Positions 11,427 to 53,152 of a DNA stretch of 64,000 nucleotides are shown piece after piece. Positions within the stretch are counted from its first letter, which is position 1. Each line of letters opens with the position of its first letter. The stretch spans positions 468,914-532,913 of the forward strand of contig NZ_FPJW01000001.1 of assembly GCF_900119735.1 (NCBI RefSeq). The letters run 5' to 3'. A model generated the notes under the pieces. It did not search any database, was not told the origin of the DNA, and saw only the letters and a list, made by a program, of their open reading frames with translations. Source of the stretch: Marinospirillum alkaliphilum DSM 21637. GTDB taxonomy: Bacteria > Pseudomonadota > Gammaproteobacteria > Pseudomonadales > Halomonadaceae. The position numbers and the translations under genes were made by a program.

Positions 11427-11533
11427 GGATGTGGGTCACTTGAAATCGGCAAAAACCGGATGATACCAGCCTGTTGCACAGGACAAAATGTCTGCGTCAC
11501 TCCAAAGTATAAAGGTGTCAGTGGGTGACTGAT

Positions 11534-11562
11534 TTGCCTGCTTTGCCTTCAGCAAGCATAAT
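11534..11562 (+). promoter_or_regulatory. Candidate sigma-70 promoter of gap
   Basis: TTGCCT (11534-11539) and CATAAT (11557-11562) are separated by 17 bases in the mfd-gap divergent region. Transcription would start near 11569, giving a leader of about 90 bases before the GTG start. Both boxes are one or two bases off consensus. Confidence 0.4.
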
Positions 11563-11660
11563 AGCGCCCAAAAAATGGGTACCTGGTCTTCAATGAATCG
11601 CCCAGTGTGAACCTGAAAAGCCGTGCAAAAGTATTAATCAATCAATGAGAGGCAGCCCCC

Positions 11661-13118: not shown

Positions 13119-13136
13119 CCCTTCGGTCATACTGAT

Positions 13137-13172
13137 AAAAGGCTGTAAGCTTTTGGCTTACAGCCTTTTTTT
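13137..13172 (+). terminator. Intrinsic terminator of gap
   Basis: A perfect 10-bp stem (GGCTGTAAGC at 13141-13150, GCTTACAGCC at 13156-13165) with loop TTTTG is followed by seven T residues and preceded by AAAA. It ends the gap transcript and isolates the nqr operon. Confidence 0.9.
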
Positions 13173-13228
13173 ATCTGTTTCAGGTCAAATGATCCTTGAG
13201 TTGAGTAGCCATCAGGGGGCAGGGTCTT

Positions 13229-13422
13229 TATAATGCTCCCAATTTTATGACCCATCCGCTGCGACAAATGGACGCGGAAAAAACGGGTCAGCGAATACTT
13301 CAAGTCCTGCAGGGTGGTGCAGACAACCGCCGAGCAAGCTGCAGGGCGAGACACGATTTTTTTGATGTAAAACCTTAGCTTTAAAAAGCTGTGTCTTTAA
13401 ACTTGGTGATTGGGCGAGACCT
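13229..13422 (+). promoter_or_regulatory. nqr operon promoter -10 and structured leader
   Basis: The 304-base gap between gap and nqrA holds, after the terminator, a perfect TATAAT at 13229-13234 without a convincing -35 box. A leader of about 180 bases follows. It has a nested inverted repeat (TGACCC at 13248-13253 with GGGTCA at 13285-13290, and CCGC/GCGG inside). A short AGCTTT/AAAGCT hairpin lies near 13377-13390. The 9-base direct repeat GGGCGAGAC occurs at 13344-13352 and again at 13412-13420, just before the nqrA start. The leader could be an RNA control element, but no known family was identified by eye. Confidence 0.35.
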
Positions 13423-14784
13423 ATGATTAAAATCAAGCGTGGCCTTGATCTACCCATCGCCGGCGCACCGCAGCAGTCCATCTCGGACGGCAAGGCAGTG
13501 CGCTCAGTTGCAGTCCTTGGACCTGACTATGTCGGCATGAAGCCGACCATGGCAGTCCAGGAAGGTGACGAGGTGAAACTGGGTCAGATCCTTTTTACGG
13601 ACAAAAAAACCGCAGGTGTGCAGTACACGGCACCCGCAGCAGGCAAGGTGGTAGCCATCAATCGTGGTCACCGTCGCGCACTGCAGTCCGTAGTGATTGA
13701 AGTAGCGGAGCAGGAAACAGCTGTTGAGTTCACCGCTTATGGTGAAAGTCAGCTGGATGGCCTGAATCGCGAGCAAGTGCAGCAGCAGTTGGTTGACTCC
13801 GGCTTGTGGACTGCCTTCAGAACCCGGCCTTTCAGTCGTGTTCCAGCGCTGGATGCCAAACCCAGCTCGGTGTTTGTCACCGCGATTGATACCCACCCCC
13901 TGGCTGCTGATCCGGCAGTCATCATTGCCGAACAGAAAGAAGCCTTCCTGGCCGGTCTGAAGGTGGTCAGCAAGCTGACCGAAGGCAAGACCTTCATCTG
14001 TAAAAAAACCGGCGCTGATCTTCCGGTAATCACCGGCGGCTCTTTTGAAGTAGCCGAGTTTGAAGGTGTGCACCCTGCTGGTCTGGTCGGTACCCACATT
14101 CATTTCCTTGATCCGGTCAGTGCCAAGAAACAAGTTTGGCACCTGGGCTATCAGGACGTGATTGCTGTCGGTCACCTGTTCCTGACCGGTAAGCTGAATC
14201 CTTCCCGTGTGGTGGCCATTGCTGGTCCGCTGGTTAAAGAGCCGCGCCTGGTTCGTACCCGTGTCGGCGCTGATCTGAATGATCTGCTGGCTGGTGAAGT
14301 GAATGCCCCCAATGGCACTCAGCTGATTTCCGGTTCTGTCTTTGGTGGCCGTGCTGCCAATGGACCGCTGGCTTATCTGGGTCGTTACCACAATCAGGTT
14401 TCGGTGCTGGCAGACGGCAGCAACCGTCAGTTCCTCGGCTGGTTGTCTCCAGGTCTGCCGGGCAGCAACCGTCACTCGGTGATGGGCATCTACCTGTCCA
14501 GCTTCTTTGGTCTGGGTCAGCGTTTTGCGCCGAATACCTCTACCAACGGCTCCGAGCGGGCCATGGTACCGGTAGGCGCTTACGAAAAAGTCATGCCGCT
14601 GGATATTCTGCCCACGCAGCTGCTGCGCACACTGATTGTTGGTGATGTGGAAGTGGCCATGCAGCTGGGTTGTCTGGAGCTGGATGAAGAGGACCTGGCC
14701 CTGTGCACCTACGTGTGTCCTGGCAAGTATGAATACGGTCCGATCCTGCGTGACAACCTGACGCTGATCGAGAAAGAGGGCTGA
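13423..14784 (+). CDS. nqrA: Na+-translocating NADH:quinone reductase subunit A
   Basis: This 453-residue protein starts [14 protein letters not shown], the standard NqrA opening, and continues with the biotin-carrier-like fold and [12 protein letters not shown]. NqrA is the cytoplasm-facing peripheral subunit at the quinone-binding side of the Na+ pump. It is first in a tight operon whose next start overlaps its stop, and it matches the usual length of about 445-450. Confidence 0.96.
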
Positions 14785-40559: not shown

Positions 40560-41450
40560 ATGTTAATATTTGATTTTTTTAGGAAGGAAGATGTTTTTAT
40601 ATCTGCAAAAAGACCGGGTGATCTTTATAAGCAATTAGCTGCGCTTGCAAGTATTTCATCGTATTTGAATCGTGTGTTTTACAGGGCTGATAGCCTTTTT
40701 TTTGATTATAGGTTGCTTGATATATTTTCATCTATAGATTTTATTGAGGTTCCTAATCGAAGGGGTAATTATGTCGCACCACATAGATCGACGTTTTTTT
40801 TAAATAGTGGTGGTGTGTTTAAATATTCGGAACTTTACGATTCTTTTAAAAGGTATTCTTACAGCTTTTCTGCTAATTATTTTGAGGGTCGAAAAGCTAT
40901 TTTTCTATCTTTTGAGTCAGAAAAAAGAAAGTGGTTAAATCAGCTGGATTTTTTAGATTTTATTGTACGAAGATTGGGTTCTAAAGCTGTTATTATAAAT
41001 AGTGGGATGACGCAGACCATTAACAGGGTTTGTTCTGGGTATAAAACAGATCAGAGGTTGTATGAGGAAAATATTCTTACTTCTTGGTGTAAAGAAAATG
41101 ATTGTGATTTTGTAAATTGTTTTGGGATGAGTGTAGACGAAAAAATCCCGTTTGCTTTATCGTGTGCTTATTCGATTGGTTCTATTGGAACATCAAATTT
41201 TATTACTAATGCATTGAGTATTCCTACCTTAAGCGCTGGTAATAACTATATTTATGATTATGCGGTAAGTAGAGGGGTTTCTGGTCATAATAAGAATGAA
41301 GTTGTTGTTACAAAAGACTATGTTATCGAAGTCGGTGTTGATGGGAGATTTATAGATAAGGATTATGTTTTTTCTGAACAGCTGGTATCTTATTTAATTG
41401 ATGAAAGATTTTTTGATATTCTTTCTGAGCGTTTTTGTTTGGGTAGTTAA
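40560..41450 (+). CDS. Unrecognised protein, possibly a GT-B-like glycosyltransferase part
   Basis: This 296-residue protein matches no family I recognise. It is rich in Phe, Tyr, Ser and Ile, has no signal peptide or membrane segment, and its DNA is far more AT-rich than its neighbours, which points to acquisition. The segment SIGSIGTSNFITNALSIPTLSAGNN (from about residue 206) recalls the nucleotide-sugar end of GT-B enzymes, where a small-residue loop precedes a helix and an IPT strand. A ribosome site GGAAGG lies eight bases before ATG 40560. Location among glycan genes supports a role there; the exact function is unknown. Confidence 0.6.
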   Translation: MLIFDFFRKEDVFISAKRPGDLYKQLAALASISSYLNRVFYRADSLFFDYRLLDIFSSIDFIEVPNRRGNYVAPHRSTFFLNSGGVFKYSELYDSFKRYSYSFSANYFEGRKAIFLSFESEKRKWLNQLDFLDFIVRRLGSKAVIINSGMTQTINRVCSGYKTDQRLYEENILTSWCKENDCDFVNCFGMSVDEKIPFALSCAYSIGSIGTSNFITNALSIPTLSAGNNYIYDYAVSRGVSGHNKNEVVVTKDYVIEVGVDGRFIDKDYVFSEQLVSYLIDERFFDILSERFCLGS

Positions 41451-41454
41451 AGAT

Positions 41455-43053
41455 ATGGTTTTATTGGATTGCACCTTGAGAGATGGTGGTTATTATAACG
41501 GTTGGAACTTTTCTGAAGTTTTGATACGGAAATATCTTGCAGCAGCAGCTGCTGTTGGCGTGAATGTGGTCGAGTTGGGCATGAGAACGCTGACCAATAA
41601 TGGTTTCAAGGGGGCTTGTGCTTTTACGACGGAAGCGTTCGTTAACTCTCTGGATGTACCTACGAGTTTGAAAGTTGCTGTCATGGTTAATGCCAGTGAG
41701 CTGGTTGGTTCTTTACCACAGGATCAGGTGCTGGAACAGTTGTTTCCTGTGAATGCTGTAAATTCACGTGTGGATTTAGTGCGCATTGCATGCCATGTGC
41801 ATGAGTTTTCTGCAGCTTTACCGGCCAGTGACTGGTTGAAGAAAAAAGGCTACCGTGTTGGGTTCAATCTGATGCAGGTTGCTGATCGCAGTGAAGCAGA
41901 AATTAAAGCACTTGCCAGAGAGGCCGCTGACTACCCCCTTGATGTGCTTTATTTTGCAGATAGCATGGGAAGCATGACTCCTCAGCAAACGGCACAGGTT
42001 ATCAGTTGGATACGCAGTGAGTGGCATGGTGATCTTGGCATTCATACCCATGACAATATGGGGCTTGCCTTGTCAAATACCCTGCGAGCTCTGGGTGAAG
42101 GAGCAACTTGGGTCGATTCAACTGTCACTGGTATGGGACGTGGACCCGGGAATGCGCGTACGGAAGAGCTTGCTATCGAAATTGCAGAGCGCCGTGGCGT
42201 AAATATCAATCTGGTGCCACTCATGTCATTAATTCGCCAACACTTCGCTCCAATGCAGCAAAAGTGCGGCTGGGGAACTAATCCTTATTACTATTTGACT
42301 GGAAAATATGGGATTCACCCCACCTATATCCAGGAAATGTTGAATGACGCCCGCTATGATGAAGAAGATGTATTGGCTGTAATTGAGCATCTGCGTGTTG
42401 AAGGCGGCAAAAAATTCAGCCTGAATACACTAGATGCAGCACGTCATTTTTATCAGGGCAAGCCTGATGGAAAATGGTCTCCATACACTGCTTTTGAGGG
42501 GCAAGAGGTTCTGCTTCTTGGTACTGGACCAGGTGTTGAACAGCATGGTAAAGCTATTGAGTCTTATATTCGTAGTCACCGGCCATTGGTTCTGGCTCTG
42601 AATACGCAGACACATATTGCAGCTGATTTGATTGATTTTCGGGCGGCCTGCCACCCGGTTCGCTTACTGGCTGACTGTGAGGCGCACACAAGGCTTCCTC
42701 AGCCCTTGATTACACCCTACTCTATGTTACCCGAAGATGTTAAAGAAGCTTTGAAAGATAAGAACCTGCTGGACTATGGTTTGAAAGTTCAATCCGATAC
42801 GTTTGAGTTTCATGAAAACTTTTGTCTCCTTCCTACTTCGTTAGTGGCTGCTTATGCACTAGCTTTACTCACCAGTGGGAAAGCCAGGAAAATTGCCATG
42901 GCAGGTTTTGATGGTTATGGTGCAGATGATCCACGAAGTAAGGAGATGCAGAGCTTACTGGATGTATACCAGAGAAATGAAGCCGCCATCCCACTGGAGT
43001 CAATTACCCCCACGCGTTATAACTTGCCAGTTCGATCGGTTTATGCACTTTGA
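41455..43053 (+). CDS. DRE-TIM (HMGL-like) aldolase fused to a sialyltransferase/DUF115-like domain
   Basis: This is a 532-residue two-domain protein. Residues 1-300 form a DRE-TIM metallolyase: LDCTLRDGG (4-12, with the catalytic Arg9 and metal ligand Asp10), the metal pair GIHTHDN (His197, His199) and DSTVTGMGRGPGNARTEEL. The family includes 4-hydroxy-2-oxovalerate aldolases and citramalate/HMG lyases, which form or split bonds next to pyruvate- or acetyl-derived carbons. Residues 345-532 start LLLGTGPGVEQ and contain TSLVAAYALALLTSG and IAMAGFDGYG, a pattern seen in GT42/DUF115-like glycosyltransferase folds. The start is ATG 41455, five bases after the previous stop. Pathway role is inferred from neighbours. 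Confidence 0.72.
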   Translation: MVLLDCTLRDGGYYNGWNFSEVLIRKYLAAAAAVGVNVVELGMRTLTNNGFKGACAFTTEAFVNSLDVPTSLKVAVMVNASELVGSLPQDQVLEQLFPVNAVNSRVDLVRIACHVHEFSAALPASDWLKKKGYRVGFNLMQVADRSEAEIKALAREAADYPLDVLYFADSMGSMTPQQTAQVISWIRSEWHGDLGIHTHDNMGLALSNTLRALGEGATWVDSTVTGMGRGPGNARTEELAIEIAERRGVNINLVPLMSLIRQHFAPMQQKCGWGTNPYYYLTGKYGIHPTYIQEMLNDARYDEEDVLAVIEHLRVEGGKKFSLNTLDAARHFYQGKPDGKWSPYTAFEGQEVLLLGTGPGVEQHGKAIESYIRSHRPLVLALNTQTHIAADLIDFRAACHPVRLLADCEAHTRLPQPLITPYSMLPEDVKEALKDKNLLDYGLKVQSDTFEFHENFCLLPTSLVAAYALALLTSGKARKIAMAGFDGYGADDPRSKEMQSLLDVYQRNEAAIPLESITPTRYNLPVRSVYAL

Positions 43054-43086
43054 TTTTTGTTTTTTAAAGGCTTATCTGGAGTAATC

Positions 43087-43830
43087 ATGCGTACAGTAAT
43101 ACTGATTCCGGCTCGTTTTGCATCAAGCCGCTATCCTGGAAAGCCACTGGTTTCACTTCTGGGTAAACCGATGATTTTATGGGTTGCTGAGCTGTCTGCT
43201 AAAGCTGTGGGGCAAGAGAATGTATATGTTGCCACTGAAGATGAGCGTATAAGAAGTGTCGTGGAGGCTGCTGGTTTTCAGTCCGTAATGACCAGTGCCG
43301 AGGCTTTGACCGGGACTGATCGGCTTGCAGAGGCAGCTGAAAAAATAAAGGCTGATATTTATATCAATGTTCAGGGTGATGAGCCATTGGTGGATCCGAA
43401 GGACATCCTGAAAATAATGAATGAAAAACTGACAACGCCAGAGCATATTATCAATGGTTTCAGTTGGGTATCAGAATCAGAAGATCCTCATTCAGTGAAT
43501 ATCCCGAAAGTGATTACGCGTGAAGATAATACTCTGGTTTATATGTCAAGAGCAGCCTTGCCGGGATTTAAAGATCAAAAGTGTGCACCTGTAGGCTATA
43601 AAAAACAAGTTTGTATCTATGCATTTAATCAGGATGAGTTGAAAGCATTTCGTAGCTTTGGAAGAAAAAGTCAGTTGGAGCATAGTGAAGATATTGAAAT
43701 TCTGCGCTTTCTTGAGCTAGGTAAAAGTATACGAATGGTTGAAACAAAGCCAGGAAGTCTTGCTGTTGATGTTCCAGAAGATGTAGGGCGTGTTGAAAAA
43801 GCCATGTTGGAACTTGGGTATCATGCTTAA
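43087..43830 (+). CDS. CMP-Kdo synthetase family cytidylyltransferase (KdsB-like)
   Basis: This 247-residue protein has all KdsB landmarks: LIPARFASSRYPGKPL (about residues 6-21), YVATEDERI, INVQGDEPLVDP and AVDVPEDVGRVEKAM at the end. KdsB joins CTP and the 2-keto-3-deoxy sugar acid Kdo to give CMP-Kdo. Its operon partners are an aldolase and a HAD phosphatase, so it may activate a related ulosonic acid rather than Kdo. It may still be the only KdsB of the cell, since the usual place after lpxK is occupied by miaE. The start ATG 43087 is preceded by GGAG. Confidence 0.87.
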   Translation: MRTVILIPARFASSRYPGKPLVSLLGKPMILWVAELSAKAVGQENVYVATEDERIRSVVEAAGFQSVMTSAEALTGTDRLAEAAEKIKADIYINVQGDEPLVDPKDILKIMNEKLTTPEHIINGFSWVSESEDPHSVNIPKVITREDNTLVYMSRAALPGFKDQKCAPVGYKKQVCIYAFNQDELKAFRSFGRKSQLEHSEDIEILRFLELGKSIRMVETKPGSLAVDVPEDVGRVEKAMLELGYHA

Positions 43831-44503
43831 TAATTTATCAGAATATAAAACCTTGGTTTTTGATTGTGATGGTGTGGTTCTCAACTCCAACAAGGTAAAA
43901 ACGCAAGCTTTTTATAATTCAACCTTGCCTTTTGGTAAGTCGGCTGCGAAGGCGATGGTTGATTATCACATTAAAAATGGTGGTATATCGCGATACAGCA
44001 AATTTGATTACTTCTTAAAATCCATTGCACCAGAGTATGCTGGTAACCCAGATGTGTTGAGTATTAAAGAGCTGCTGTCAATTTACGCTGAGGAAGTTCG
44101 TAAAGGACTTCTGAGCTGTGAAATTACTAATGGCCTTTCGGTGCTTCGTGAACAGACATCGGATTCAAGATGGATGATTGTTTCTGGTGGCGATCAGAAG
44201 GAACTTCGCGAAATATTTAAAGTACGTAATATTGACCAATATTTTGATGGTGGTATTTTTGGAAGCCCAGCTACAAAAGATGAAATACTGAATGAGCTAA
44301 CAATAGATGGTCGCTTGCAAAAGCCTGCTCTTTTTATTGGTGATAGCAAGTATGACTTTGAAGCTGCATCCGGAGCTGATTTAGATTTTGTTTTTATTCG
44401 TGCATGGTCTGAAGTTGATGATATAGATTCATGGTTGATGTTAAATGGTATTTATGGATTAAATTTTGTTTCTGATCTTTCTGAAACCATGTGGAAAAAA
44501 TAA
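43823..44503 (+). CDS. HAD superfamily phosphatase
   Basis: This 226-residue protein has the four HAD motifs: FDCDGVVLNS (nucleophile Asp and acid Asp, about residues 13-22), IVSGGD, the motif III Lys in ATKDEIL, and FIGDSKYDFEAA. The helical cap after motif I is of the beta-phosphoglucomutase/phosphoglycolate phosphatase type. In an operon with an aldolase and a CMP-transferase, a role like KdsC (dephosphorylating a keto-deoxy sugar phosphate before activation) is plausible but unproven. The ATG lies inside the last codons of the KdsB-like gene (8-base overlap). Confidence 0.8.
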   Translation: MLNNLSEYKTLVFDCDGVVLNSNKVKTQAFYNSTLPFGKSAAKAMVDYHIKNGGISRYSKFDYFLKSIAPEYAGNPDVLSIKELLSIYAEEVRKGLLSCEITNGLSVLREQTSDSRWMIVSGGDQKELREIFKVRNIDQYFDGGIFGSPATKDEILNELTIDGRLQKPALFIGDSKYDFEAASGADLDFVFIRAWSEVDDIDSWLMLNGIYGLNFVSDLSETMWKK

Positions 44504-44505
44504 TA

Positions 44506-45270
44506 ATGCGAGTGCTTGTTTGTGGTTCTCGACCTGGTGCAAAGATTTATGATGCCGAATATGGTTTTTTTGTTAATGGAGCTATTAGCAAGGCGCATCT
44601 TGGAAAGTTTAAGAAGATTTATCAGGTTGTAGCTAAAAATGCCTTTATAAAAGCCTCAAAAAGCACTAAAGATTATGATGTTGTGTGGAGAAGTCAGGTT
44701 GTTTTAAAGAATGTTAGCCATATTGATCACATTTTATTTGTTGGTAAGGGTGATTTCGAAAATTTTTCTTCCGTCTATAATGATTTTGGTGGACAGTTAG
44801 ATGGTTTAAGTTTTGAAGATGTGCAACCTGAATCTCGCAATGAAAAGGTCAAGAAAGTTTGTAGTATTGATATTCCAGTTGGTTTTTTTGTTTCTTTGAA
44901 ACTGTTGGCTAGATTTCATTTTTTACCTTTTTATGAGAGTCTGAGGTATTTTTTCAGTGGGATAGCAAATAATGATGATTGCCCGGGCTTGTTCAGGCCT
45001 TCAAATGGTGTTTATGCTTTGGTTGAGGCAATAGATCGATTTGGGGCTGATTTTGAATATTACCTTGTAGGGGTTGGTATTCACTTTTATGATTATCAAT
45101 ACGATGTTGATGGGGTTGCATATAAAAGAAAGAAAGCGCTTCGACCACATTTGCTTGCAGATATTGCTATTCTTCAAAAGCTCTCAAAATACAATGTATT
45201 TGTTGATGATGTTTTTGTTTCTGATTTGTGTGGACTGAAGCTTATAAAAGATGATTCAGATGAGGACTGA
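44506..45270 (+). CDS. Putative CMP-sugar glycosyltransferase (GT42-like fold)
   Basis: This 254-residue protein has low-level similarity to no family by simple inspection, but its layout recalls bacterial GT42 sialyltransferases. It opens MRVLVCGSRPGA, where GT42 has a GNGPS loop that binds CMP. FFVNGA occupies the strand that carries RCN in GT42, and PSNGVYALVEAIDRFGADFE then YYLVGVGIHFYD sit where GT42 has TSG-x-LL...EIYLIGFDFY. It is encoded beside a CMP-sugar synthetase, which fits. Its DNA is AT-rich. It starts two bases after the HAD gene. Confidence 0.5.
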   Translation: MRVLVCGSRPGAKIYDAEYGFFVNGAISKAHLGKFKKIYQVVAKNAFIKASKSTKDYDVVWRSQVVLKNVSHIDHILFVGKGDFENFSSVYNDFGGQLDGLSFEDVQPESRNEKVKKVCSIDIPVGFFVSLKLLARFHFLPFYESLRYFFSGIANNDDCPGLFRPSNGVYALVEAIDRFGADFEYYLVGVGIHFYDYQYDVDGVAYKRKKALRPHLLADIAILQKLSKYNVFVDDVFVSDLCGLKLIKDDSDED

Positions 45271-45271
45271 T

Positions 45272-45700
45272 ATGACCAAGAAAATTGGCTACACAACAGG
45301 AGTTTATGACCTCTTTCATATTGGTCACCTGAACGTACTCAAGCGTGCAAGGCTGGAGTGTGATTACCTGATTGTCGGGGTCACCACCGATGAACTCTGC
45401 GAATCACGCAAGGGCAAGCGGCCAATCATTCCTTTTGTTGAGCGAATGGAAATTGTTGAGCACATTGATTTTGTGGACGAGGTAGTGCCGCAGGTCAATA
45501 TGGACAAAATGGAAGCCTGGCGTAACCTGAAGTTTGACAAGATGTTTGTGGGCGATGACTGGAAGGGATCCGAAAAGTGGAATCAGATGGAAAAGGAATT
45601 TGCGGCTGTTGGTGTTGAAATTGTTTATTTTCCCTATACATCTCATACATCAAGTACCAAGCTAAGGGAAGTGCTTAACAAGTTTCTTGAGGAGAGCTGA
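45272..45700 (+). CDS. Cytidylyltransferase of the TagD/glycerol-3-phosphate type, first copy
   Basis: This 142-residue protein has the HxGH nucleotidyltransferase motif in YDLFHIGHLNVLKRA (about residues 12-26) and the ribose/phosphate loop SSTKLREVL near the end. Enzymes of this group link CTP to alcohol phosphates such as glycerol-3-phosphate. The C-terminal motif differs from the canonical RTxGISTT of TagD (here YTSHTSSTKL), so the substrate may be another phospho-alcohol. ATG 45272 overlaps the preceding gene's end region (GAGGAC site inside that gene). It is followed two bases later by the HIT gene. Confidence 0.83.
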   Translation: MTKKIGYTTGVYDLFHIGHLNVLKRARLECDYLIVGVTTDELCESRKGKRPIIPFVERMEIVEHIDFVDEVVPQVNMDKMEAWRNLKFDKMFVGDDWKGSEKWNQMEKEFAAVGVEIVYFPYTSHTSSTKLREVLNKFLEES

Positions 45701-45702
45701 GC

Positions 45703-46131
45703 ATGAGCGACAACGCGCTGAAAGTTTTTCAGGAAAAGTTTCGGGTTCATGAGTTGAGCATAGCCGAAACACCTGGCTGGATTCTTTCAGTGCGTCCACA
45801 GCAGTTGACTCTTGGCTCAATGGTTTTAAGTGTGCAGACTGAAGCAAAAAGCTTTGCTGAGCTTACTGCATGCCAGTGTCAGGAGATGGGGCAGTTGCTT
45901 GCCCATGCTGAGCAGTTGGTAAAAGAGCGCCTTGATGCCGTTCGCATCAATGTATTGTGTCTGATGATGCAGGACCCTTTGCTGCACTTTCATGTTTTTC
46001 CGCGTTATGCTGAGCCACTGCAGTTTGCTGGCCAGGTCTGGCAGGACGAAGACTGGCCGGGTCCGCCACTGATTCGCCCTGTGGTGACTGATCAAGCAGT
46101 GCTGCATGAGTTGCAAGGGATTTTTAAATAA
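45703..46131 (+). CDS. HIT-like nucleotide-binding protein with incomplete triad
   Basis: This 142-residue protein carries the C-terminal HIT signature as LLHFHVFPRY (about residues 92-101). Compared with HVHVHVLPR in Fhit, the first His is Leu while the nucleophile-position His and the last His remain. HIT enzymes hydrolyse or transfer nucleoside monophosphates from dinucleotides and nucleotide-sugar-like substrates. Standing between a cytidylyltransferase and LicD genes, it may handle a CDP- or CMP-linked intermediate. The ribosome site AGGAGA precedes ATG 45703. Confidence 0.75.
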   Translation: MSDNALKVFQEKFRVHELSIAETPGWILSVRPQQLTLGSMVLSVQTEAKSFAELTACQCQEMGQLLAHAEQLVKERLDAVRINVLCLMMQDPLLHFHVFPRYAEPLQFAGQVWQDEDWPGPPLIRPVVTDQAVLHELQGIFK

Positions 46132-46144
46132 ATATAAAAGGGGA

Positions 46145-47497
46145 ATGTTTTTGAATCATTTTTTTGATGTGATCAGGTACCGTTATCTGCGTTCATTTGT
46201 TGTTAAAACTGCGCGACGATATTACCGGGTCGGTAAATTCAGTGCGGCATGCAAATCCTATAAAAAATGCCTTGCTTCCCTGGAAAGGGTTGATTTGCCA
46301 AGTGTTTATAATGTAAAGCGCCAGTGGGAGTTTGAGTATTACCGTTCACTTTATCGGTTGGGTGAATCGCCTTTTGCAGACCCTTTTTTTGATGTGGACT
46401 TTAAACAGGCAGTTCCCTCCGTTATACCGCAATCTGTTACCGGTAGCTTTTCCATTCGGACTTTGCACTCTGGATACTTCATCACGGGGATTTATAAAGG
46501 GACTGGAAAGCAAGTTTGTTTATGCATTGATGACCAGCCGGTGACCAGTCTTTCGTTCAGAAAGAGTGGCCTTCGAAAAGGACATTTCAAAACTTATCTC
46601 AAGCGTTCGGTCGTGGATCGTTTGCCTGCTGAATCCTGCTTGTCACTCAGGGATGATCTTGGTCAGCCGCTGGCCTGTAGTGGTGTGACTTGTTTTAATC
46701 TGCTGGTACCTCATGGGGATGGCAGCTTGTTTGAGCGGCTTGCACAGGGCTCAAAAATCAACAAGAAGGGATTTCTGACCCTGACGAATGAGCAGGTCTC
46801 GCTGCAGCAGGATCGGTTTCTGGATCTTTATGTACGTGTGCGTCAGCACTTTGATGAAAAACTCGACAAAAAGCTCTTCATTCTTTATGGCACCTTACTG
46901 GGATTGATCCGGGAGGGTGATTTTATCAAGGGTGATGATGATTTTGATGCCGGTTATGTTTCCTTTGCCGACAACGCTGAGTCTGTGAAACAGGAAACCA
47001 TGCAATTGGTTGTGGAGCTGGTTCTGGCTGGATTCACCTGCAGCTTCAATACCAATGGCCGTTTGTTCCGGATTCGTGACCAGGCCACACCTGGACTGCA
47101 TCTGGATGTACGTCCGGTCTGGTTTGAGAAGGGCAAGGCATGGCTGCACAAGCAGGCTTGCCTGCCACTGGATCAATCAGACTTTTTGCCGGTGACAGAA
47201 CAGCAGTTGCGCGGCAAGCTGGTTTATACTCCCGCATCTGCAGAAAAGTTTCTGATCAGTTATTACGGCAGCGGCTGGAAAGTTCCGGACCCCACCTATT
47301 CCAACGCATCTCAGCGGATCCCGAAATCAGTGACACGGCATTTGAAAAAGCTGTGTATTGGCCCAGAGGATTATCGAGTCATGGTGGATGAAATCGAACG
47401 CAGAAGGCCGGATTATCCCAATGCAGGTCAGTTTATTTCTATTGGTCTGCACCCCCTGTATCCCTTGACTGAATATGAGGCCAACTGTGAGTGGTAG
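46145..47497 (+). CDS. LicD family phosphotransferase, large form
   Basis: This protein of about 450 residues has a LicD domain in its second half: LFILYGTLLGLIREGDFIK followed by GDDDFDAGYV, the acidic cluster that binds metal and the CDP substrate. LicD proteins transfer phosphocholine or other phospho-alcohols from CDP donors to glycans. The first 200 residues have no family I recognise. The start is uncertain: ATG 46145 is very close to the AAAAGGGG ribosome site, TTG 46151 has better spacing, and ATG 46106 lies inside the HIT gene. Confidence 0.75.
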   Translation: MFLNHFFDVIRYRYLRSFVVKTARRYYRVGKFSAACKSYKKCLASLERVDLPSVYNVKRQWEFEYYRSLYRLGESPFADPFFDVDFKQAVPSVIPQSVTGSFSIRTLHSGYFITGIYKGTGKQVCLCIDDQPVTSLSFRKSGLRKGHFKTYLKRSVVDRLPAESCLSLRDDLGQPLACSGVTCFNLLVPHGDGSLFERLAQGSKINKKGFLTLTNEQVSLQQDRFLDLYVRVRQHFDEKLDKKLFILYGTLLGLIREGDFIKGDDDFDAGYVSFADNAESVKQETMQLVVELVLAGFTCSFNTNGRLFRIRDQATPGLHLDVRPVWFEKGKAWLHKQACLPLDQSDFLPVTEQQLRGKLVYTPASAEKFLISYYGSGWKVPDPTYSNASQRIPKSVTRHLKKLCIGPEDYRVMVDEIERRRPDYPNAGQFISIGLHPLYPLTEYEANCEW

Positions 47498-48101
47498 TGC
47501 ACGTTTGGTAGGTGCAACGGCTGATAAAGCTCGAAAGTATCTGAAGCAGGTCACTGATGTGCTGGACAGAAAGGGTGTGATCTATTGTCTGGATGGTGGA
47601 ACCCTGTTGGGGATCGCCAGAGAAGGGCGTTTGCTGCCCTGGGATGATGACATGGACCTTTTTGTACCTGCTTCAGAAGTGGATAAGCTTAGAAAGTGCA
47701 TTCTGCCACTGTGGTTGAGTGGCCTGCGGGTAAGAACAGAGGCTTTTGAATCTGTCTGTGGCCCGGCAAAGCCGGGCGATCTGCGTGTTGTGAAGTTCAG
47801 GAACCGCAAGCGGTTGATCAGTCGCGGCGAGATTCTGCTGGATATTTTTGTCAAGTATGCCGATGAGGCGTTTTACCATTGGTCGGTTGGCAAGGGTGAA
47901 GGTCAGACGGTGAACAAGAAAGTGCCGCGTCACTTTTATGATAACCTTGCAACCCTTGAGTTTGATGGCAAAACCTACCCTGTTCCGGCGGATCTGGATG
48001 GTTATCTGACCTGTCGCTACGGTGACTGGCGCACGCCGGTGGAAGCGTGGAACTACAGGCAGGATGACCTGGCTGCTGTTTCTGCTGATCAACAACGCTA
48101 A
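47487..48101 (+). CDS. LicD family phosphotransferase, compact form
   Basis: This 204-residue protein is nearly all LicD domain: YCLDGGTLLGIAREGRLLPW then DDDMDLFVP (about residues 33-61), GEILLDIFVKY, and a C-terminal RYGDWRTP that is typical of the family. It should transfer a phospho-alcohol from a CDP donor. GTG 47487, six bases after ATGAGG, was preferred over ATG 47475. It overlaps the larger LicD gene by 11 bases, so the two are coupled and probably act on the same glycan. Confidence 0.83.
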   Translation: MSGSARLVGATADKARKYLKQVTDVLDRKGVIYCLDGGTLLGIAREGRLLPWDDDMDLFVPASEVDKLRKCILPLWLSGLRVRTEAFESVCGPAKPGDLRVVKFRNRKRLISRGEILLDIFVKYADEAFYHWSVGKGEGQTVNKKVPRHFYDNLATLEFDGKTYPVPADLDGYLTCRYGDWRTPVEAWNYRQDDLAAVSADQQR

Positions 48102-48121
48102 TCTTCTGAGTTCTGTCTGAC

Positions 48122-48583
48122 ATGTCCAAAACCATTCTGACCTATGGCACTTTTGATATGTTCCATATCGGTCATCTGCGCTTGCTGGAGCGCCTGAGTC
48201 ATATGGCTGACCGGGTTATCGTGGGTGTATCCACGGATGAGTTCAATCTCGGTAAAGGCAAGAAAACCCTGATTCCTTATGAGCAGCGGGCAGAGATTGT
48301 GTCGGCCATCAGTCATGTTGACCTGGTGATTCCCGAGGTTTCATGGGATCAAAAGGTTGAGGATGTAAAAAAGTATGGTGTTGATGTGTTTGCCATGGGC
48401 AACGACTGGGAAGGCAAGTTTGATTTTCTGAAAGAGCACTGCGAGGTGGTCTATCTGGAGCGCACCCGGAACATTTCCACCACAGAGCTGAAAAAATCCT
48501 TGAAAAGCTTTTTGTCGATTCCGCATGAAGACCTGTTGAAGGCTTTTGAAGTGCTGGAAATGCTGCGCCAGGATCTGGAGTAA
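48122..48583 (+). CDS. tagD: Glycerol-3-phosphate cytidylyltransferase (TagD-like), second copy
   Basis: This 153-residue enzyme has YGTFDMFHIGHLRLLERL (HxGH motif, about residues 8-25), the GNDWEGKFD loop and the canonical TagD end RTRNISTTELKK. It should make CDP-glycerol from CTP and glycerol-3-phosphate. Nearby LicD and TagF-like proteins are candidate users of CDP-glycerol. It is closer to true TagD than the copy at 45272. A helical tail of about 30 residues extends past the usual 129-residue B. subtilis TagD. Confidence 0.87.
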   Translation: MSKTILTYGTFDMFHIGHLRLLERLSHMADRVIVGVSTDEFNLGKGKKTLIPYEQRAEIVSAISHVDLVIPEVSWDQKVEDVKKYGVDVFAMGNDWEGKFDFLKEHCEVVYLERTRNISTTELKKSLKSFLSIPHEDLLKAFEVLEMLRQDLE

Positions 48584-48591
48584 CTCACACA

Positions 48592-49548
48592 ATGTTTGCC
48601 AGGTTTTCCAAGGCACTGCACAAGGCGGGTTTTTATCTTTCGGGTGCAACAACGGCTTATCTGCCGGATGCCTTGTTTCGACCATTTCTGCAATCCAGAC
48701 TGGCTGCCCTGTCCGATTATGACGAACAGGCGGTGATGGACCGGGTGAACTATTACAACCGCCTGGATGCGCCTTTTGATCTGGGTGATGCCGGTGTACG
48801 CATCGGTGATTTCCGACGCGATGGCAGCAGTGCCTATTTTCTTGATCTGAAGCGGTTGGCGCGGTATTTCCCTGCTGATTACCGCATGCACTATCTTTTT
48901 GGTGACATCACGCACGTACCGGATGTGCCGAGCTTTCTGAAAAGCCGCCCGATTGAGGGAGATGTCCGCAATTCCGTGTTGCTGAAACTGAATTCGGTTC
49001 GACACTATTATGCTGAGTCGGACCTTCTTTCTTTTGAAGGAAAGATTGGTAAGGCGGTATGGCGTGGTGTGGATCATATGCCCTGGCGTCAGGAGTTTCT
49101 GCAGCGGTATGCAAATAGCCATTTCTGTGATGTGGGCTGTGTTGGCAAAAAGGCTCGCAGGCCCGAGTTTTTAAAGCCTTTTATGTCGATTCGGGAGCAG
49201 TTGCGTTACCGTTATGTGGTGAGCATTGAAGGTTATGATGTTGCCACCAATCTGAAGTGGATTTTGCGCTCCAATTCCTTGTGCATGATGCGTCGCCCAC
49301 GTTTTGAAACCTGGTTTATGGAGGGGCGTCTGCAAGCGGGTGTGCATTATGTGGAGCTGCGTGATGACCATGCTGATCTTGAAGAGAAGATTGCCTGGTA
49401 CGAGTCGCATCCGGATGAGGCGCTACAGATTATTGCCAATGCCCGCCAGTTCAGCCGGATGTTTGAAGATGCCCGGCTGGAGGAGCTGGTAGGGCTTTTG
49501 GTGCTGGAAAAGTTTTTCCGTTACTCCGGTCAGTTATTGAGCAAGTAG
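48592..49548 (+). CDS. Glycosyltransferase family 90 (CAP10/LpsA-like)
   Basis: This 318-residue protein has the CAP10 pattern: AVWRGVDHMPWRQEFLQRYA (about residues 153-172), then YRYVVSIEGYDVATNLKWIL and a C-terminal block with LEEKIAWYESHPDEAL. GT90 enzymes are best known from fungal capsule and animal O-glucosyl/xylosyltransferases; bacterial members modify LPS. No signal peptide is seen, so it is likely cytoplasmic. Its 3' end overlaps the convergent TagF-like gene by 19 bases. Confidence 0.82.
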   Translation: MFARFSKALHKAGFYLSGATTAYLPDALFRPFLQSRLAALSDYDEQAVMDRVNYYNRLDAPFDLGDAGVRIGDFRRDGSSAYFLDLKRLARYFPADYRMHYLFGDITHVPDVPSFLKSRPIEGDVRNSVLLKLNSVRHYYAESDLLSFEGKIGKAVWRGVDHMPWRQEFLQRYANSHFCDVGCVGKKARRPEFLKPFMSIREQLRYRYVVSIEGYDVATNLKWILRSNSLCMMRRPRFETWFMEGRLQAGVHYVELRDDHADLEEKIAWYESHPDEALQIIANARQFSRMFEDARLEELVGLLVLEKFFRYSGQLLSK

Positions 49549-50606
49549 TTAACAATTCTTTCTGAAACCTTCCCATCCAGCGTGCCAATCAATTCTTCTG
49601 TGGTGCGATTTCTTTCGCTGCTGAGTCGCTCAGGGTTTGATAGTTCTGCCTTGAGGATTTTGACCAGTTGTGATGGTTTTTCTACATGAGCAGCAAGAGT
49701 TTGATAGGGCGTGATGGTCTGGTCCATGCGCTTTTCAAATCGGAAACGTAAGGGGCCGCGATAACTCCAGCGCAGTTTGAGGAAATCCAGCCAGACTACT
49801 GGTTTGTTCAGTGCTGCAAATTCAAACAGGGCTGATGATGCTTCGCTGATGAGCAGGTCGGCAGTAGCCATGTAGGGCAGCAGGGAGAGCTCTTCCGGTG
49901 GGGCCAGATAGGTGTTGTTGTGTTTGCTCCATGCCTGAAAGCATTTGCGCTGTGCCTTGTAGTTCGGATGCAGGTAGCTGTTCAGGTGGGGTTTGATGAT
50001 GATGTTGCAGTCAGGTAGCAACGCTGGCCAATCGCGGGGCATGCATTCAATGGAGCTGGGATAAAAGGTGGGTGCATACAGCAGGGTGGGTTTGTTGCTG
50101 CTTAGCCCGTGTTGTTCCGGTTTGAAAGCCTGTGGGTATGGCAGGTTTATGGGGGCCAGGGGGTCAAGTTTGGCGAATCCACTCTGGATGAAGCAGGCTT
50201 GCGGGTAGAGGTTCTGGAGTTGTTGTTGGCGGTGTGGGCCTTCAGTGAAACGTACATCAAAGTGACTCAGGTCTTCAGCGTAGTAACAGGCTTTTGTTCC
50301 TATTCCATGATACAGCAGGGCTGTTCGGGTTTTTTCCGGCAGTTGCGACAGTTCGCTGTAGTTGTTGCCAAAAATGATCCAGTCTGGTTCTTCCTGTTGG
50401 TAGTGTGCTGTCACAGCAGCTTCTTCAATAATCCTGAATCGCAGTTGGGATGTTGCGGCAAAGTGTTGTATGAGTGTTTTTGCATCGCTTTTGTTGTGAA
50501 TCAGCAGTTGGCTTTTAATGCCTCGTAGCTCCAGTTCATGATAAACAGGAAGAAATTGCGGAAGGTGGTACAGGCTCGAAACGTTAAACCAGATATTGTG
50601 GGACAT
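49530..50606 (-). CDS. CDP-glycerol glycerophosphotransferase family (TagB/TagF-like)
   Basis: This 358-residue GT-B-type protein has the family signs: ALLYHGIGTKACYY (about residues 97-110), TLLYAPTFYPSS, IIIKPHLNSY, and a C-terminal DLLISEASSALFEFAALNKPVVWLD. These proteins transfer glycerol-phosphate or related units from CDP-glycerol to a lipid-linked or glycan acceptor. It lies on the minus strand within an otherwise + strand locus and so has its own promoter, yet its likely donor is made by the neighbouring TagD-like gene. Confidence 0.85.
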   Translation of the reverse strand: MSHNIWFNVSSLYHLPQFLPVYHELELRGIKSQLLIHNKSDAKTLIQHFAATSQLRFRIIEEAAVTAHYQQEEPDWIIFGNNYSELSQLPEKTRTALLYHGIGTKACYYAEDLSHFDVRFTEGPHRQQQLQNLYPQACFIQSGFAKLDPLAPINLPYPQAFKPEQHGLSSNKPTLLYAPTFYPSSIECMPRDWPALLPDCNIIIKPHLNSYLHPNYKAQRKCFQAWSKHNNTYLAPPEELSLLPYMATADLLISEASSALFEFAALNKPVVWLDFLKLRWSYRGPLRFRFEKRMDQTITPYQTLAAHVEKPSQLVKILKAELSNPERLSSERNRTTEELIGTLDGKVSERIVNYLLNN

Positions 50607-50700
50607 TGGGCTGAGGTGTCTGCTGTAAGTTGCTTGGTGTTGGTGTATCTTACCGTTTTTGGTCCTTGGTTTGAATGGACCCTTGTCTGAAGAGTAGCGT

Positions 50701-51516
50701 ATGACGACCAGTGTGATTTTTACAACCTACAACTCACCTGCCTGGCTGGAGAAGGTGTTGTGGGGTTTTTTTGAGCAGACCGTGAAGGATTTCGAGATCG
50801 TTATTGCTGATGATGGCTCACGTGACGAAACCCGCGAGCTGATTGAGCGGATGCGCAGTCAGTCACCGGTGCCGATTCAGCATGTGTGGCAGGAGGATGA
50901 TGGTTTCCAGAAGTGCCGCATCATGAACAAGGCCATTCTGGCAACAAAGGGTGATTACCTGATTTTCACGGACGGAGATTGTATTCCGCGTGCTGATTTT
51001 GTTGAGCAGCATCTACGTCATCGTGAGCCGCGTGCTTATCTGTCCGGCGGTTATTTCAAGTTACCCATGCATGTGAGTGAAGCCATCACTCAGGATGATG
51101 TGATGCATCAACGTCCTTTTGATCCGGCCTGGTTGGTCAGTCAGGGCATGAAAAAAACGCATAAGTTCATGAAGCTGACCGCTCAGGGGCGCTGGGCTGA
51201 CTTTCTGAATACCATTAGCCCGACGCGTCCGACCTGGAACGGCCATAATGCCTCTTGTTACAAGGAGTTTGCGCTGGCGGTGAACGGTTTTGAGGAGAAG
51301 ATGCAGTATGGTGGTCAGGACTGTGAGTTTGGTGATCGTTTGGTGAACTTTGGTCTGAAGGCAAAGCGCATCCGTTATTCTGCGGTATGTGTGCATCTGG
51401 ATCACAAGCGGGGTTATGTAACGCCTGAGATGCTGGCCAATAGCCGTGCTATCCGCCAGGACACCAAAAAGAATCGTGTAGTGAAGGCGCGTCTGGGTAT
51501 TGATCAATATTTATAG
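50701..51516 (+). CDS. Glycosyltransferase family 2
   Basis: This 271-residue GT-A enzyme starts with TSVIFTTYNSPAWLEKVLWG and has IVIADDGSRDET, the metal-binding FTDGDCIPR (DxD-type, about residues 89-97) and a C-terminal acceptor part with TWNGHNASCYKEFALAVNGF and YGGQDCEFGDRL. The latter resembles the galactosyltransferase-like C-domain of chondroitin-type polymerases. It transfers a sugar in the cytoplasm; donor and acceptor are unknown. It diverges from the TagF-like gene and is followed 15 bases later by another GT. Confidence 0.88.
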   Translation: MTTSVIFTTYNSPAWLEKVLWGFFEQTVKDFEIVIADDGSRDETRELIERMRSQSPVPIQHVWQEDDGFQKCRIMNKAILATKGDYLIFTDGDCIPRADFVEQHLRHREPRAYLSGGYFKLPMHVSEAITQDDVMHQRPFDPAWLVSQGMKKTHKFMKLTAQGRWADFLNTISPTRPTWNGHNASCYKEFALAVNGFEEKMQYGGQDCEFGDRLVNFGLKAKRIRYSAVCVHLDHKRGYVTPEMLANSRAIRQDTKKNRVVKARLGIDQYL

Positions 51517-51531
51517 TGAGATGATCACAAA

Positions 51532-52428
51532 ATGAAACTACGTGAAGTCTGGCCATCCTTGCGAGCGACCTGGCGTGTCTGCCGACTTTCTTCGGCTGTT
51601 TTGAAGCGGTCAGCCGAAAAACCCTTGCCTGTCATTGTGACACTGACATCGATTCCTTCTCGTTTGCGGACTTTGCACTTAACAATTCGCAGTTTATTGG
51701 CACAATCAACAAAGCCTGAGCGTATTGTGTTGTGGCTTCACCGTGATCTTGAGCACAGCCTGCCGCAAAGCCTTGTTGAGCTGCAGGGTGAGGTATTTCA
51801 AATCCATTATGTGGATTTGACTTGCTCACATCGTAAGTTGATTCATTCGCTGACTGCTTTTCCGGATCGCGTGCTGGTTACCTGTGATGATGATGAGATT
51901 TATGAGGAGACATGGCTTGAGCGCTTGTATCGTGATCACTTGCAGTTTCCTGGGGATGTGATTGCTCATGAGTGCCGCAGAATTGCTTATGGTGCTGATG
52001 GTGCGCCTTTGCCCTACAGGAAATGGCGAACCCTTACGCAGGCGGGGGCTGCAGGTATGGATTTGCTGCCAATCGGTTATGGAGGGGTGCTTTATCCCCC
52101 GGGTGCCTTGATGCCCGAAGCCACGGATGTTGACTTGTTCATGCGCCTGGCTCCAAAGGCTGATGATCTTTGGTTTAAGGCGATGTCTTTTCGTAAGGGT
52201 ACACGAGTCAGGCGCTCGCGTGATCCCTTGCCAAAGCCAGTAGGAATTATTGGTTCCCAGTGGGTGTCTTTGCAGAAAACCAATGTGCATGAGGATGCCA
52301 ATAGGCTGCAGTGGTTGGCGATTTGTGAGCATTTTGGGATAGAGCTGGAACCACGACCTGCTCAGCGTAAGGCCGGTCCACTGTTGATGCTTTGGTTGTA
52401 TTTCAGTAGCTGTTGGCGGCTATCCTGA
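51532..52428 (+). CDS. GT-A fold glycosyltransferase
   Basis: This 298-residue protein has PVIVTLTSIPSRLRTLHLTI (about residues 33-52), ERIVLWLHRDLE, and a DxD-type metal motif VTCDDDEIYEETW. This arrangement is typical of glycosyltransferases found in capsule and LPS loci with no firm CAZy family in my memory. It begins with a basic stretch and ends with a hydrophobic tail (LLMLWLYFSSCW) that may touch the membrane. It ends at a terminator shared with the convergent yrbL-like gene. Confidence 0.78.
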   Translation: MKLREVWPSLRATWRVCRLSSAVLKRSAEKPLPVIVTLTSIPSRLRTLHLTIRSLLAQSTKPERIVLWLHRDLEHSLPQSLVELQGEVFQIHYVDLTCSHRKLIHSLTAFPDRVLVTCDDDEIYEETWLERLYRDHLQFPGDVIAHECRRIAYGADGAPLPYRKWRTLTQAGAAGMDLLPIGYGGVLYPPGALMPEATDVDLFMRLAPKADDLWFKAMSFRKGTRVRRSRDPLPKPVGIIGSQWVSLQKTNVHEDANRLQWLAICEHFGIELEPRPAQRKAGPLLMLWLYFSSCWRLS

Positions 52429-52435
52429 TAGCTTG

Positions 52436-52459
52436 AAAGGGGAGTTATTTCCCCTTTTT
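52436..52459. terminator. Bidirectional terminator between the GT-A gene and the yrbL-like gene
   Basis: The 8-bp stem AAAGGGGA (52436-52443) / TCCCCTTT (52450-52457) has loop GTTATT and T residues on the right, A residues on the left. It overlaps the stop codon region of the minus-strand gene. Confidence 0.75.
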
Positions 52460-53152
52460 ACTGTTTTTTCCTATAAGGGGCGTTGTGCTGATGGCGCGAA
52501 CTGTTTCCAGCATGATTGAGTGTTTAAACAGTTTGCGGTACCGGCGTCTTTGACGCTCAATGGATTTTATTTTCAGTAGCTTGTTGCTGATTGCACAGGT
52601 TGAGCGAATGGGAAACAGGGTTTTGTCGCCTAAACCGTCAATGATCATGAAACGGTGGCAATCACCTTGCCATGCATAGACAATATTTCTGCCTGTCAAG
52701 TCACTCATCACGAGTGATGAGGCCTTGTAGGTTTGAAAAAAAGCTTCCAGATCTGCAGCGGCCTGGGCATCAAAGCGGCCCGTTTTGAGAAGTTCTGTAT
52801 AGGTGGGGGCAAGCTTTCCATACTGATCTTTTTGAGCTTCAACAATAATGCCCGGACCCAGGTCTGTATCAGCAAATCCTCTGAAGCTTGCCAGGTGTGG
52901 AAAGATTGAAGATTCAGTGGCAATGGATTTAATGCGTACGTATTCGTTTAGCTCACGCAGTACACAAAGGTGCTTGAAACGAAAGCGCAGCTCATGGCGC
53001 CATTCTTTAAGTGAGCCTGGTCTTGTGGCATAGGGTTGGTGGATGAGCACCTTTACGAGCAGATTTTTGTCATGCGGATGCTGGTAAATGTGTCGTGCAG
53101 AACCTTTGAGTAAAGGTGTCTCTGCAGCCAGCAACAGCTTATGATCAGACAT
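52445..53152 (-). CDS. YrbL family kinase-fold protein
   Basis: This 235-residue protein matches the PhoP-regulatory-network YrbL family. It begins with a Gly-rich strand (PLLKGSARHIYQHPHDKNLLVKV) like a kinase nucleotide loop, followed by EWRHELRFRF, LGPGIIVEA and a catalytic-loop-like VMSDLTGRNIVY and FMIIDGLGDKT. The layout is that of a small protein-kinase or LPS-kinase fold. Members are often encoded among LPS core genes; the substrate is not established. It is cytoplasmic and transcribed towards the GT genes. Confidence 0.75.
   Translation of the reverse strand: MSDHKLLLAAETPLLKGSARHIYQHPHDKNLLVKVLIHQPYATRPGSLKEWRHELRFRFKHLCVLRELNEYVRIKSIATESSIFPHLASFRGFADTDLGPGIIVEAQKDQYGKLAPTYTELLKTGRFDAQAAADLEAFFQTYKASSLVMSDLTGRNIVYAWQGDCHRFMIIDGLGDKTLFPIRSTCAISNKLLKIKSIERQRRRYRKLFKHSIMLETVRAISTTPLIGKNSKKGK

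Follow-up and report, generated by a model that had tools for sequence, protein, structure and literature searches.

The aldolase, the cytidylyltransferase and the HAD-superfamily phosphatase that lie side by side in a 64,000-nucleotide stretch of Marinospirillum alkaliphilum DSM 21637 (contig NZ_FPJW01000001.1, positions 468,914 to 532,913; this whole stretch is called the window, and coordinates refer to it) form a conserved three-gene module, which is real and widespread. As read from their sequences, the three enzymes are likely to make one 3-deoxy-2-ulosonic acid, activated with cytidine monophosphate (CMP), for a surface glycan. The product would probably be a cousin of Kdo (3-deoxy-manno-octulosonate) and sialic acid that is built with a different kind of carbon-carbon bond enzyme. 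KdsA-like and NeuB-like enzymes are the two textbook condensing families for CMP-ulosonates, and some bacterial glycans are reported to contain short ulosonates (C5-C7). A description of the module was not found in the full-text literature of PMC, a collection that mostly does not cover subscription papers; passages of PMC5109656, PMC12925313, PMC9736851, and PMC12388113 have no bearing on the module.

The original prediction for this locus had joined four consecutive genes into one pathway, with the fourth as a possible transferase. It is partly supported: its core idea stands, but its four-gene form does not, as three of the genes are conserved (aldolase, cytidylyltransferase and HAD), whereas the fourth was not found outside the window's own genome when 369 genomes of the class were searched. 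The genome that harbors the window is gammaproteobacterium-like, 3.14 Mb in size, distributed over 22 contigs and 100% complete.

Conservation of the Module

The four genes, coding for the aldolase, the KdsB-like enzyme, the HAD and a possibly GT42-like protein, are present on the plus strand from 41455 to 45270 (Table 1) with tight operon spacing, which the original prediction had already noted: they are separated, in order, by 33 bases, an 8-base overlap and 2 bases. Scanning contigs with the aldolase yielded 87 relatives, of which the best 80 (36-68% identity) were kept as loci. The scan was pattern-based with patterns from both domains of the aldolase and is therefore biased to close two-domain relatives. 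Neighbors were counted by profile searches on stop-to-stop frames, on the same strand and no farther from the aldolase than 2.5 kb on its upstream or 4 kb on its downstream side. The genes recur together, as the search for a conserved cluster proposed earlier should reveal: an enzyme of the PF02348 type is found near the aldolase in 79/80 loci, 77 times on the same strand and in L071 and L082 adjacent on the other strand, and in the sole remaining locus, L014, the contig ends within the aldolase. The gene right after the aldolase is KdsB-like in 49 loci, NeuA-like in 15, of the HpcH/HpaI aldolase family in six, a HAD in two and none of these in eight. A module-family HAD is encoded in 64/80 loci (63 by the distance rule, plus L083). 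As a separate observation, a NeuA-like partner is present in 7/10 of the loci with an HpcH/HpaI aldolase (one of them, L032, has both kinds of partner), possibly indicating a second condensation.

The 78 locus rows of the aldolase tree, outside which L025 and L055 remain, belong to Pseudomonadota (65), Bacillota (4), Cyanobacteriota (3), Actinomycetota (2), Planctomycetota, Bacteroidota and Chloroflexota (one each), i.e., seven named phyla, and one row has no named phylum; several loci are metagenome bins, so that some of these labels may be wrong. The gene order recurs across phyla, which rules out a chance neighborhood. Within the class, the full aldolase (E ≤ 1e-60) is found in 7/369 genomes, including that of the window. 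The cytidylyltransferase adjoins it in four of the other six, and an HpcH/HpaI gene alone intervenes in G320 and G125; a HAD is present in five, and in the sixth, G230, the match lies at a contig end. This sample is not independent, as at least three of its genomes (G320, G263, and G132) seem to be represented among the 80 loci already. The occurrence is patchy: of 58 relatives searched, counting the window's own genome, three carry a full-length copy, and so do two of the eight members of the genus, of which two are <90% complete. On a Leisingera plasmid, the trio is annotated as "aldolase catalytic domain-containing protein," "3-deoxy-manno-octulosonate cytidylyltransferase" and "HAD family hydrolase."

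The Aldolase and Its Second Domain

Residues ~1-330 of the aldolase form a TIM barrel of the HMGL/DmpG type, with a PF00682 match over residues 3-251 (6.7e-27; 95 bits at a cut-off of 29). The nearest solved structure is PDB entry 3dxi (1.3e-46), followed by DmpG-type aldolases. Among those rows of a 79-row alignment that carry a letter at the position, R9 is kept in 76/76, D10 in 75/76, and H197 and H199 in 78/78. An RDG motif and an HxH pair, to which we presumably can assign a metal role, inside an HMGL-like barrel place the protein among the DRE-TIM (HMGL-like) metallo-enzymes. The barrel family, both motifs and a GMGxGxGN loop are common to the module aldolase and the 4-hydroxy-2-oxovalerate aldolases DmpG, BphI and HsaF. 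However, the module aldolase misses the curated DmpG cut-offs (NF006049, 117.5 of 229 bits; TIGR03217, 98.4 of 286 bits), reads RDGGY where those enzymes have RDGMH, and differs from them by a fused MptE-like domain and by its glycan-gene surroundings. An RDGGYY motif is shared with 3dxi, the closest solved relative, which presumably comes from Bacteroides, is labeled "putative aldolase" only, and whose solved chain of 320 aa is the barrel alone.

The original prediction had missed the second domain of the aldolase, of the MptE/Maf type, which comprises ~198 residues (about 335-532) and is covered in nearly all 80 loci. The AlphaFold2 model of this domain, made from 54 sequences, reaches a predicted local distance difference test score (pLDDT) of 96.3. 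Foldseek relates it to M. jannaschii HPPK (8sd5, TM 0.56) and to SteA, and no sialyltransferase is among the best 50 of its 1649 matches. PF01973 is matched by 23/54 family members (E ≤ 1, best 2.3e-6) and not by the window's own copy, whose membership in the PF01973 (MptE-like/Maf) family therefore rests on fold and kin. Maf enzymes use CMP-sugars as donors. According to PMC11339370, the domain of the Maf flagellin glycosyltransferase is likewise PF01973 and resembles CstII; given this likeness, it is possible by analogy that the C-terminal domain handles the CMP-sugar, and the Maf link at most hints at a transferase role.

A relative consisting of the barrel only, on a Streptomyces plasmid (L126, 6479-8750), is followed by a module-type HAD. 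By eye, DHDPS-like and SDR-like genes are also present, and the surroundings resemble a natural-product cluster.

Cytidylyltransferase and Phosphatase

The cytidylyltransferase of the window passes two NCBIfam KdsB subfamily models (277 bits at a cut-off of 255, and 234 at 193) and fails a third (201 at 234), and it stays below both KdsB equivalog models (147 at 281, and 146 at 155). Its best PDB match is the KdsB entry 1gq9, and it is 36% identical to the KdsB of its own genome. Catalytic roles for K19 and two Asp residues of CMP-Kdo synthetase are described in PMC3149649. These catalytic residues are present in the module enzyme: K19, D98, and D228 are invariant in 53/53 module-family KdsBs and in 10/10 hand-chosen housekeeping KdsBs (residue numbers are the listed alignment positions minus two). 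At other positions the two groups differ. Residue 73 is His in 10/10 housekeeping KdsBs, but Cys or Ala in 50/53 module KdsBs; residue 124 is Leu in 10/10, as opposed to Gly or Ala in 51/53; residue 176 is Gly in 8/10 versus Cys in 49/53; and residue 181 is Arg in 9/10, whereas Asn, Thr, Pro, or Ser is found in 51/53. According to PMC12409901, E. coli KdsB tolerates a change at C8 of Kdo but not at C7, which mildly suggests selective KdsB pockets.

The swapped CYTIDYLYLTRANSFERASES is of either of two types across the loci: among 78 labeled rows, the partner is KdsB-like in 54 (window included) and NeuA-like in 24, with L014 unlabeled, L071 and L082 labeled by hand, and L032 counted as KdsB-like. 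The predicted KdsB-like CMP-transferase is hence what the window contains, but not what every locus contains. On the aldolase tree, a quick tree without bootstraps, the partner labels need 19 changes, at least 12 of them forced on well-supported branches, and they cluster no more strongly than shuffled labels (112/500 shuffles as low). Aldolase distances correlate with those of the HAD (Mantel r = 0.47, n = 59; 0/999 permutations as high), of the KdsB-like partner (0.51, n = 43; 0/999) and of the NeuA-like partner (0.37, n = 22; 7/999), 11 divergent loci having been dropped before the count. The forced swaps between partners of the KdsB and NeuA kinds, 12 or more in number, imply that the function of this slot is CMP activation, and we read the pattern as one CMP-synthetase having been exchanged several times for another that does the same work.

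For the phosphatase, which was searched against PF13419 from position 43826, the motifs FDCDGV and GDS..D are kept across 61 module HADs, and no KdsC model matched the HAD of the window in the NCBIfam search.

Kdo and Nonulosonate Genes in the Same Genomes

In tblastn searches of the 80 loci (E ≤ 1e-8; queries were proteins of the window's genome plus the KpsF of L018), KdsA was found in 0/80 and NeuB in 3/80, which makes the DRE-TIM aldolase the obvious condensing enzyme. The prediction that this aldolase condenses in place of KdsA or NeuB is supported to that extent; in the ten loci that also contain an HpcH/HpaI aldolase, it may not be the only enzyme to form carbon-carbon bonds. NeuC-like matches occur in two loci, in one of which (L052) the match overlaps a WecB-like gene. 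A KpsF-type isomerase is likewise found in 2/80, both times with a second KdsB-type gene; in Amphritea L018, the module is accompanied within 8 kb by a KpsF-like gene and by an additional KdsB of the KpsU kind.

The question of whether kdsA and kdsB occur elsewhere in the genome can be answered as well: matches to the KdsA, KdsB, and NeuB families lie on other contigs, along with a NeuA-like enzyme. By eye, kdsA is located beside pyrG, kdsB near murB, and neuB in a cluster with neuC, an aminotransferase gene and a neuA-like gene. That cluster (L143) also holds a CBS-type nucleotidyltransferase and perhaps serves legionaminic acid synthesis; save for the Pfam matches, its genes were named by eye. 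With KdsA, KdsB, and NeuB encoded elsewhere, the module cytidylyltransferase is surplus. The original prediction had considered that this protein might be the only CMP-Kdo synthetase of the cell, in a cluster lacking conservation. The sole-synthetase role is ruled out by a stronger KdsB match elsewhere in the genome, at 224 bits, and by a third enzyme of the PF02348 type, also elsewhere, at 95 bits; the cluster is conserved.

Fifteen hand-picked locus genomes, from assemblies whose completeness is not stated, were searched beside the window's own. In the Gram-positive Metabacillus (G001) and Rossellomorea (G003), KdsA gave no match, NeuB only a weak one at the same place as the PF00793 match, and the one strong PF02348 match in each is the module's own. 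The sole PF00793 match of G001 is DAHP-synthase-sized and, by eye, joined to a chorismate mutase-like start; G003 resembles G001 by match sizes.

The Fourth Gene

The protein encoded at 44506-45270 matches no Pfam or NCBIfam model at 0.001. Among the 369 genomes of the class, it turned up in that of the window and in none of the others, which rules it out as a core part of the module. Its structure model is of low confidence (pLDDT 56). The four best PDB matches of this model in Foldseek are chains of CstII, a sialyltransferase of family GT42 (E 0.004-0.02, probability 0.93-0.99), none reaching E < 0.001. Three SAR11 loci hold, close to the module, possible distant relatives (21-26% identity) that were matched by eye. 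A profile made solely from the protein of the window recovered nothing but that protein, and the joint profile contains both sides; the SAR11 kinship and the structure model built on it are therefore weak. When the alignment of the 44506-45270 and SAR11 proteins was compared with the C-terminal domain of the aldolase, the probability was 4. Judging from the modeled fold, it is plausible that the protein is a transferase, not a core part. In other loci, PF01973-type proteins (L021 and L030 above the cut-off, L028 below) may do the transferase job.

Proposed Pathway and Alternatives

We infer every reaction, substrate and product of the following scheme from gene content, gene order, conservation, folds and conserved residues, which were observed. 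The metal-dependent, DmpG-type barrel would join an aldose phosphate and a three-carbon keto acid by aldol addition; the keto acid would most likely be pyruvate, as in DmpG, and not phosphoenolpyruvate (PEP), as in KdsA and NeuB. The HAD would then take the phosphate off the condensation product, the KdsB-like (elsewhere NeuA-like) enzyme would couple CMP to the anomeric hydroxyl, and a CMP-sugar transferase would place the sugar, in the window perhaps the 44506-45270 protein and elsewhere a different enzyme. Since a KpsF-type isomerase is found in only two loci, a common metabolite probably serves as the aldehyde, e.g., glyceraldehyde-3-phosphate or erythrose-4-phosphate. The ulosonate would then have six or seven carbons, and Kdo is probably not what the module makes.

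The order of steps (condensation, dephosphorylation, CMP activation) is that of the Kdo pathway of KdsA, KdsC, and KdsB (with KpsF and KpsU), with which the module also has in common a KdsB-like enzyme with conserved catalytic residues. However, the condensing enzyme of the Kdo pathway is the PEP-using KdsA, whereas the module has a DRE-TIM aldolase that carries an additional domain, a HAD_2-type phosphatase that no KdsC model matches, an isomerase of the KpsF type in two loci only, and a KdsB-like enzyme that is unlike housekeeping KdsBs at several positions. By the tblastn search of the 80 loci, KdsA is not the condensing enzyme of the cluster, and the cytidylyltransferase stays below the equivalog cut-off. 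A parallel route to ordinary Kdo or a stereoisomer of it, for a Kdo capsule or outer core and comparable to KpsU/KpsF in group 2 capsules, is an unlikely reading, even though the KdsB subfamily models and 1gq9 are the best matches of the cytidylyltransferase and PMC3149649 describes a second CMP-Kdo synthetase that is specific to capsules. The genome already encodes KdsA and KdsB, L018 holds its KpsF-like gene and second KdsB in addition to the module, the module KdsBs deviate at positions conserved in housekeeping KdsBs, and NeuA-like swaps together with 78/80 loci lacking a KpsF-type isomerase fit poorly.

The pathways for nonulosonic (sialic, legionaminic, and pseudaminic) acids share CMP activation by a PF02348 enzyme, and folds of the Maf type and possibly of the GT42 type occur near the module, but they condense with NeuB, while the module has an aldolase of another family and NeuB does not generally stand alongside its CMP-synthetase. 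That the aldolase makes Kdn or a sialic-type nonulosonate from a hexose phosphate seems slightly less likely still than a route to Kdo. The 24 NeuA-like partners and the PF01973 and GT42-like folds, which belong to nonulosonate transferases, would suit it; the scarcity of NeuB and of NeuC-like matches (searches that did not extend to other amino-sugar steps) and the larger number of KdsB-like partners speak against it. We regard as the least probable alternative that the aldolase serves another purpose, such as a catabolic route or the making of an acyl or branched-chain side group on a glycan, and that it and a CMP-sugar synthetase only lie in the same glycan islands. Barrel-only relatives in other contexts (Mesorhizobium, Priestia, and Streptomyces) and the HpcH/HpaI aldolases point in this direction, but a cytidylyltransferase is adjacent or near in 79/80 loci and the very next gene in 64, and a module-family HAD follows the aldolase in the Streptomyces locus, too.

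Several observations weigh against the synthesis of a CMP-ulosonate by the three module enzymes. To our knowledge, no activity is known for the two-domain aldolase family, and the position of DmpG His21 (number and role of this residue as we take them to be) is Tyr13 in the module aldolase. Four barrel relatives without a C-terminal match, i.e., few and hand-picked controls from three plasmid loci with 7-kb flanks and from L116 with short flanks, have no KdsB- or NeuA-type gene in the surrounding stretch, which implies that the barrel is not bound to CMP-ulosonate chemistry; among barrel-only relatives, the one in Mesorhizobium lies with SDR and carboxylase-family genes, and another is found in Priestia. 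An HpcH/HpaI aldolase within or near the module in 10/80 loci (L028, L029, L031-L034, L048, L054, L055, and L068; PF03328 in the one checked) could be the pyruvate aldolase there, so that the module aldolase may not be the sole former of carbon-carbon bonds everywhere. No module-family HAD was found in 16/80 loci, nine of them from SAR11 (L071-L076, L079, L080, and L082) and a few with short downstream sequence; L054 carries another HAD in the cluster. In G019, a genome of the same genus, the aldolase and the KdsB-like enzyme are followed by a PEP mutase and a phosphonopyruvate decarboxylase-like thiamine pyrophosphate (TPP) enzyme with no HAD, which indicates that phosphatase supply may be general. 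The housekeeping KdsBs form one clade except that two module-family members, L042_11 and L054_12, fall inside. Among the 15 genomes, Bacillus PS06 (G002) carries, on a contig (C29) other than that of the module, adjacent KdsA-sized and KdsB-type matches that may be genuine or due to contamination, strong NeuB matches mean that the genomes of L011, L012, L038, L054, and L055 are not clean cases, and the Gram-negative genomes mostly have KdsA- and KdsB-type matches of their own.

Synthesis of one CMP-activated 3-deoxy-2-ulosonic acid by the module remains our preferred reading. A bolder version is possible, if doubtful: a third CMP-ulosonate route beside KdsA and NeuB, in which a fused DRE-TIM aldolase would make a C6-C7 3-deoxy-ulosonate from pyruvate and an aldehyde phosphate of central metabolism, the Maf/CstII-related C-terminal domain would handle or transfer the CMP-sugar, and the CMP-synthetases would be interchangeable, in about seven phyla including Gram-positive bacteria.

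Genomic Surroundings

Table 1. Features of the module and its immediate surroundings in the window.
Feature	Position	Strand	Basis
Upstream protein, possible glycosyltransferase	40560..41450	+	no Pfam/NCBIfam match; relative near module in L032, 36% over 188 aa
Two-domain DRE-TIM aldolase, 532 aa	ATG 41455, stop 43053	+	PF00682, 3dxi, RDG and HxH conservation
C-terminal MptE-like (PF01973) domain of aldolase	42457..43050	+	AlphaFold2 model, Foldseek, PF01973 in kin
KdsB-like cytidylyltransferase, 247 aa, group apart from housekeeping KdsB	43087..43830	+	PF02348 7.5e-39
HAD-superfamily phosphatase, HAD_2 type	ATG 43823, stop 44503	+	PF13419 6.3e-10
Possibly GT42-like protein, 254 aa, candidate CMP-ulosonate transferase	ATG 44506, stop 45270	+	CstII Foldseek matches, low-confidence model
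TagD-like cytidylyltransferases, context only	45251-45700 and 48122-48583	+	PF01467; TIGR01518 86 and 163 bits, cut-off 165
142-aa protein without family, context only	45703-46131	+	
LicD-like proteins, context only	46106-47497 and 47475-48101	+	PF04991 on second only; NF045866 weak on both

Upstream of the module lie two genes of the UDP-sugar dehydrogenase type and an ABC exporter (MsbA-like by eye); further downstream, GT90-type, CDP-glycerol-phosphotransferase-like, two GT2-type (one below the curated cut-off) and YrbL-like genes are found. GC content falls from 52.8% for the window as a whole to 45.7% in 40560-53150, 41.7% in the four genes and 38.0% in 43826-45700. We read the region as a surface-glycan island beside msbA, perhaps for the outer core of lipopolysaccharide. 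The two different TagD-like cytidylyltransferases and the two adjoining LicD-like proteins suggest decoration with glycerol phosphate. At the place of these TagD/LicD-like genes, the locus of G019 (L140) has a phosphonate branch (9973-13512), which by eye comprises a PEP mutase joined to a cytidylyltransferase domain, the TPP enzyme and a dehydrogenase-like gene. Elsewhere in the window, ARAGORN reports a tRNA-like match with a four-base anticodon at 10484-10585, within a long reverse-strand frame, which is probably a false positive.

Implications

If the proposed synthesis is true, the module aldolase would represent a third condensing family that ranges from Gammaproteobacteria to Bacillota, cyanobacteria and SAR11, and many genomes would make an acidic surface sugar. 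The labels "aldolase catalytic domain-containing protein" and "3-deoxy-manno-octulosonate cytidylyltransferase" would be corrected accordingly. Moreover, a new aldolase for making 3-deoxy sugars would become available, and the question is directly testable in cultured strains.

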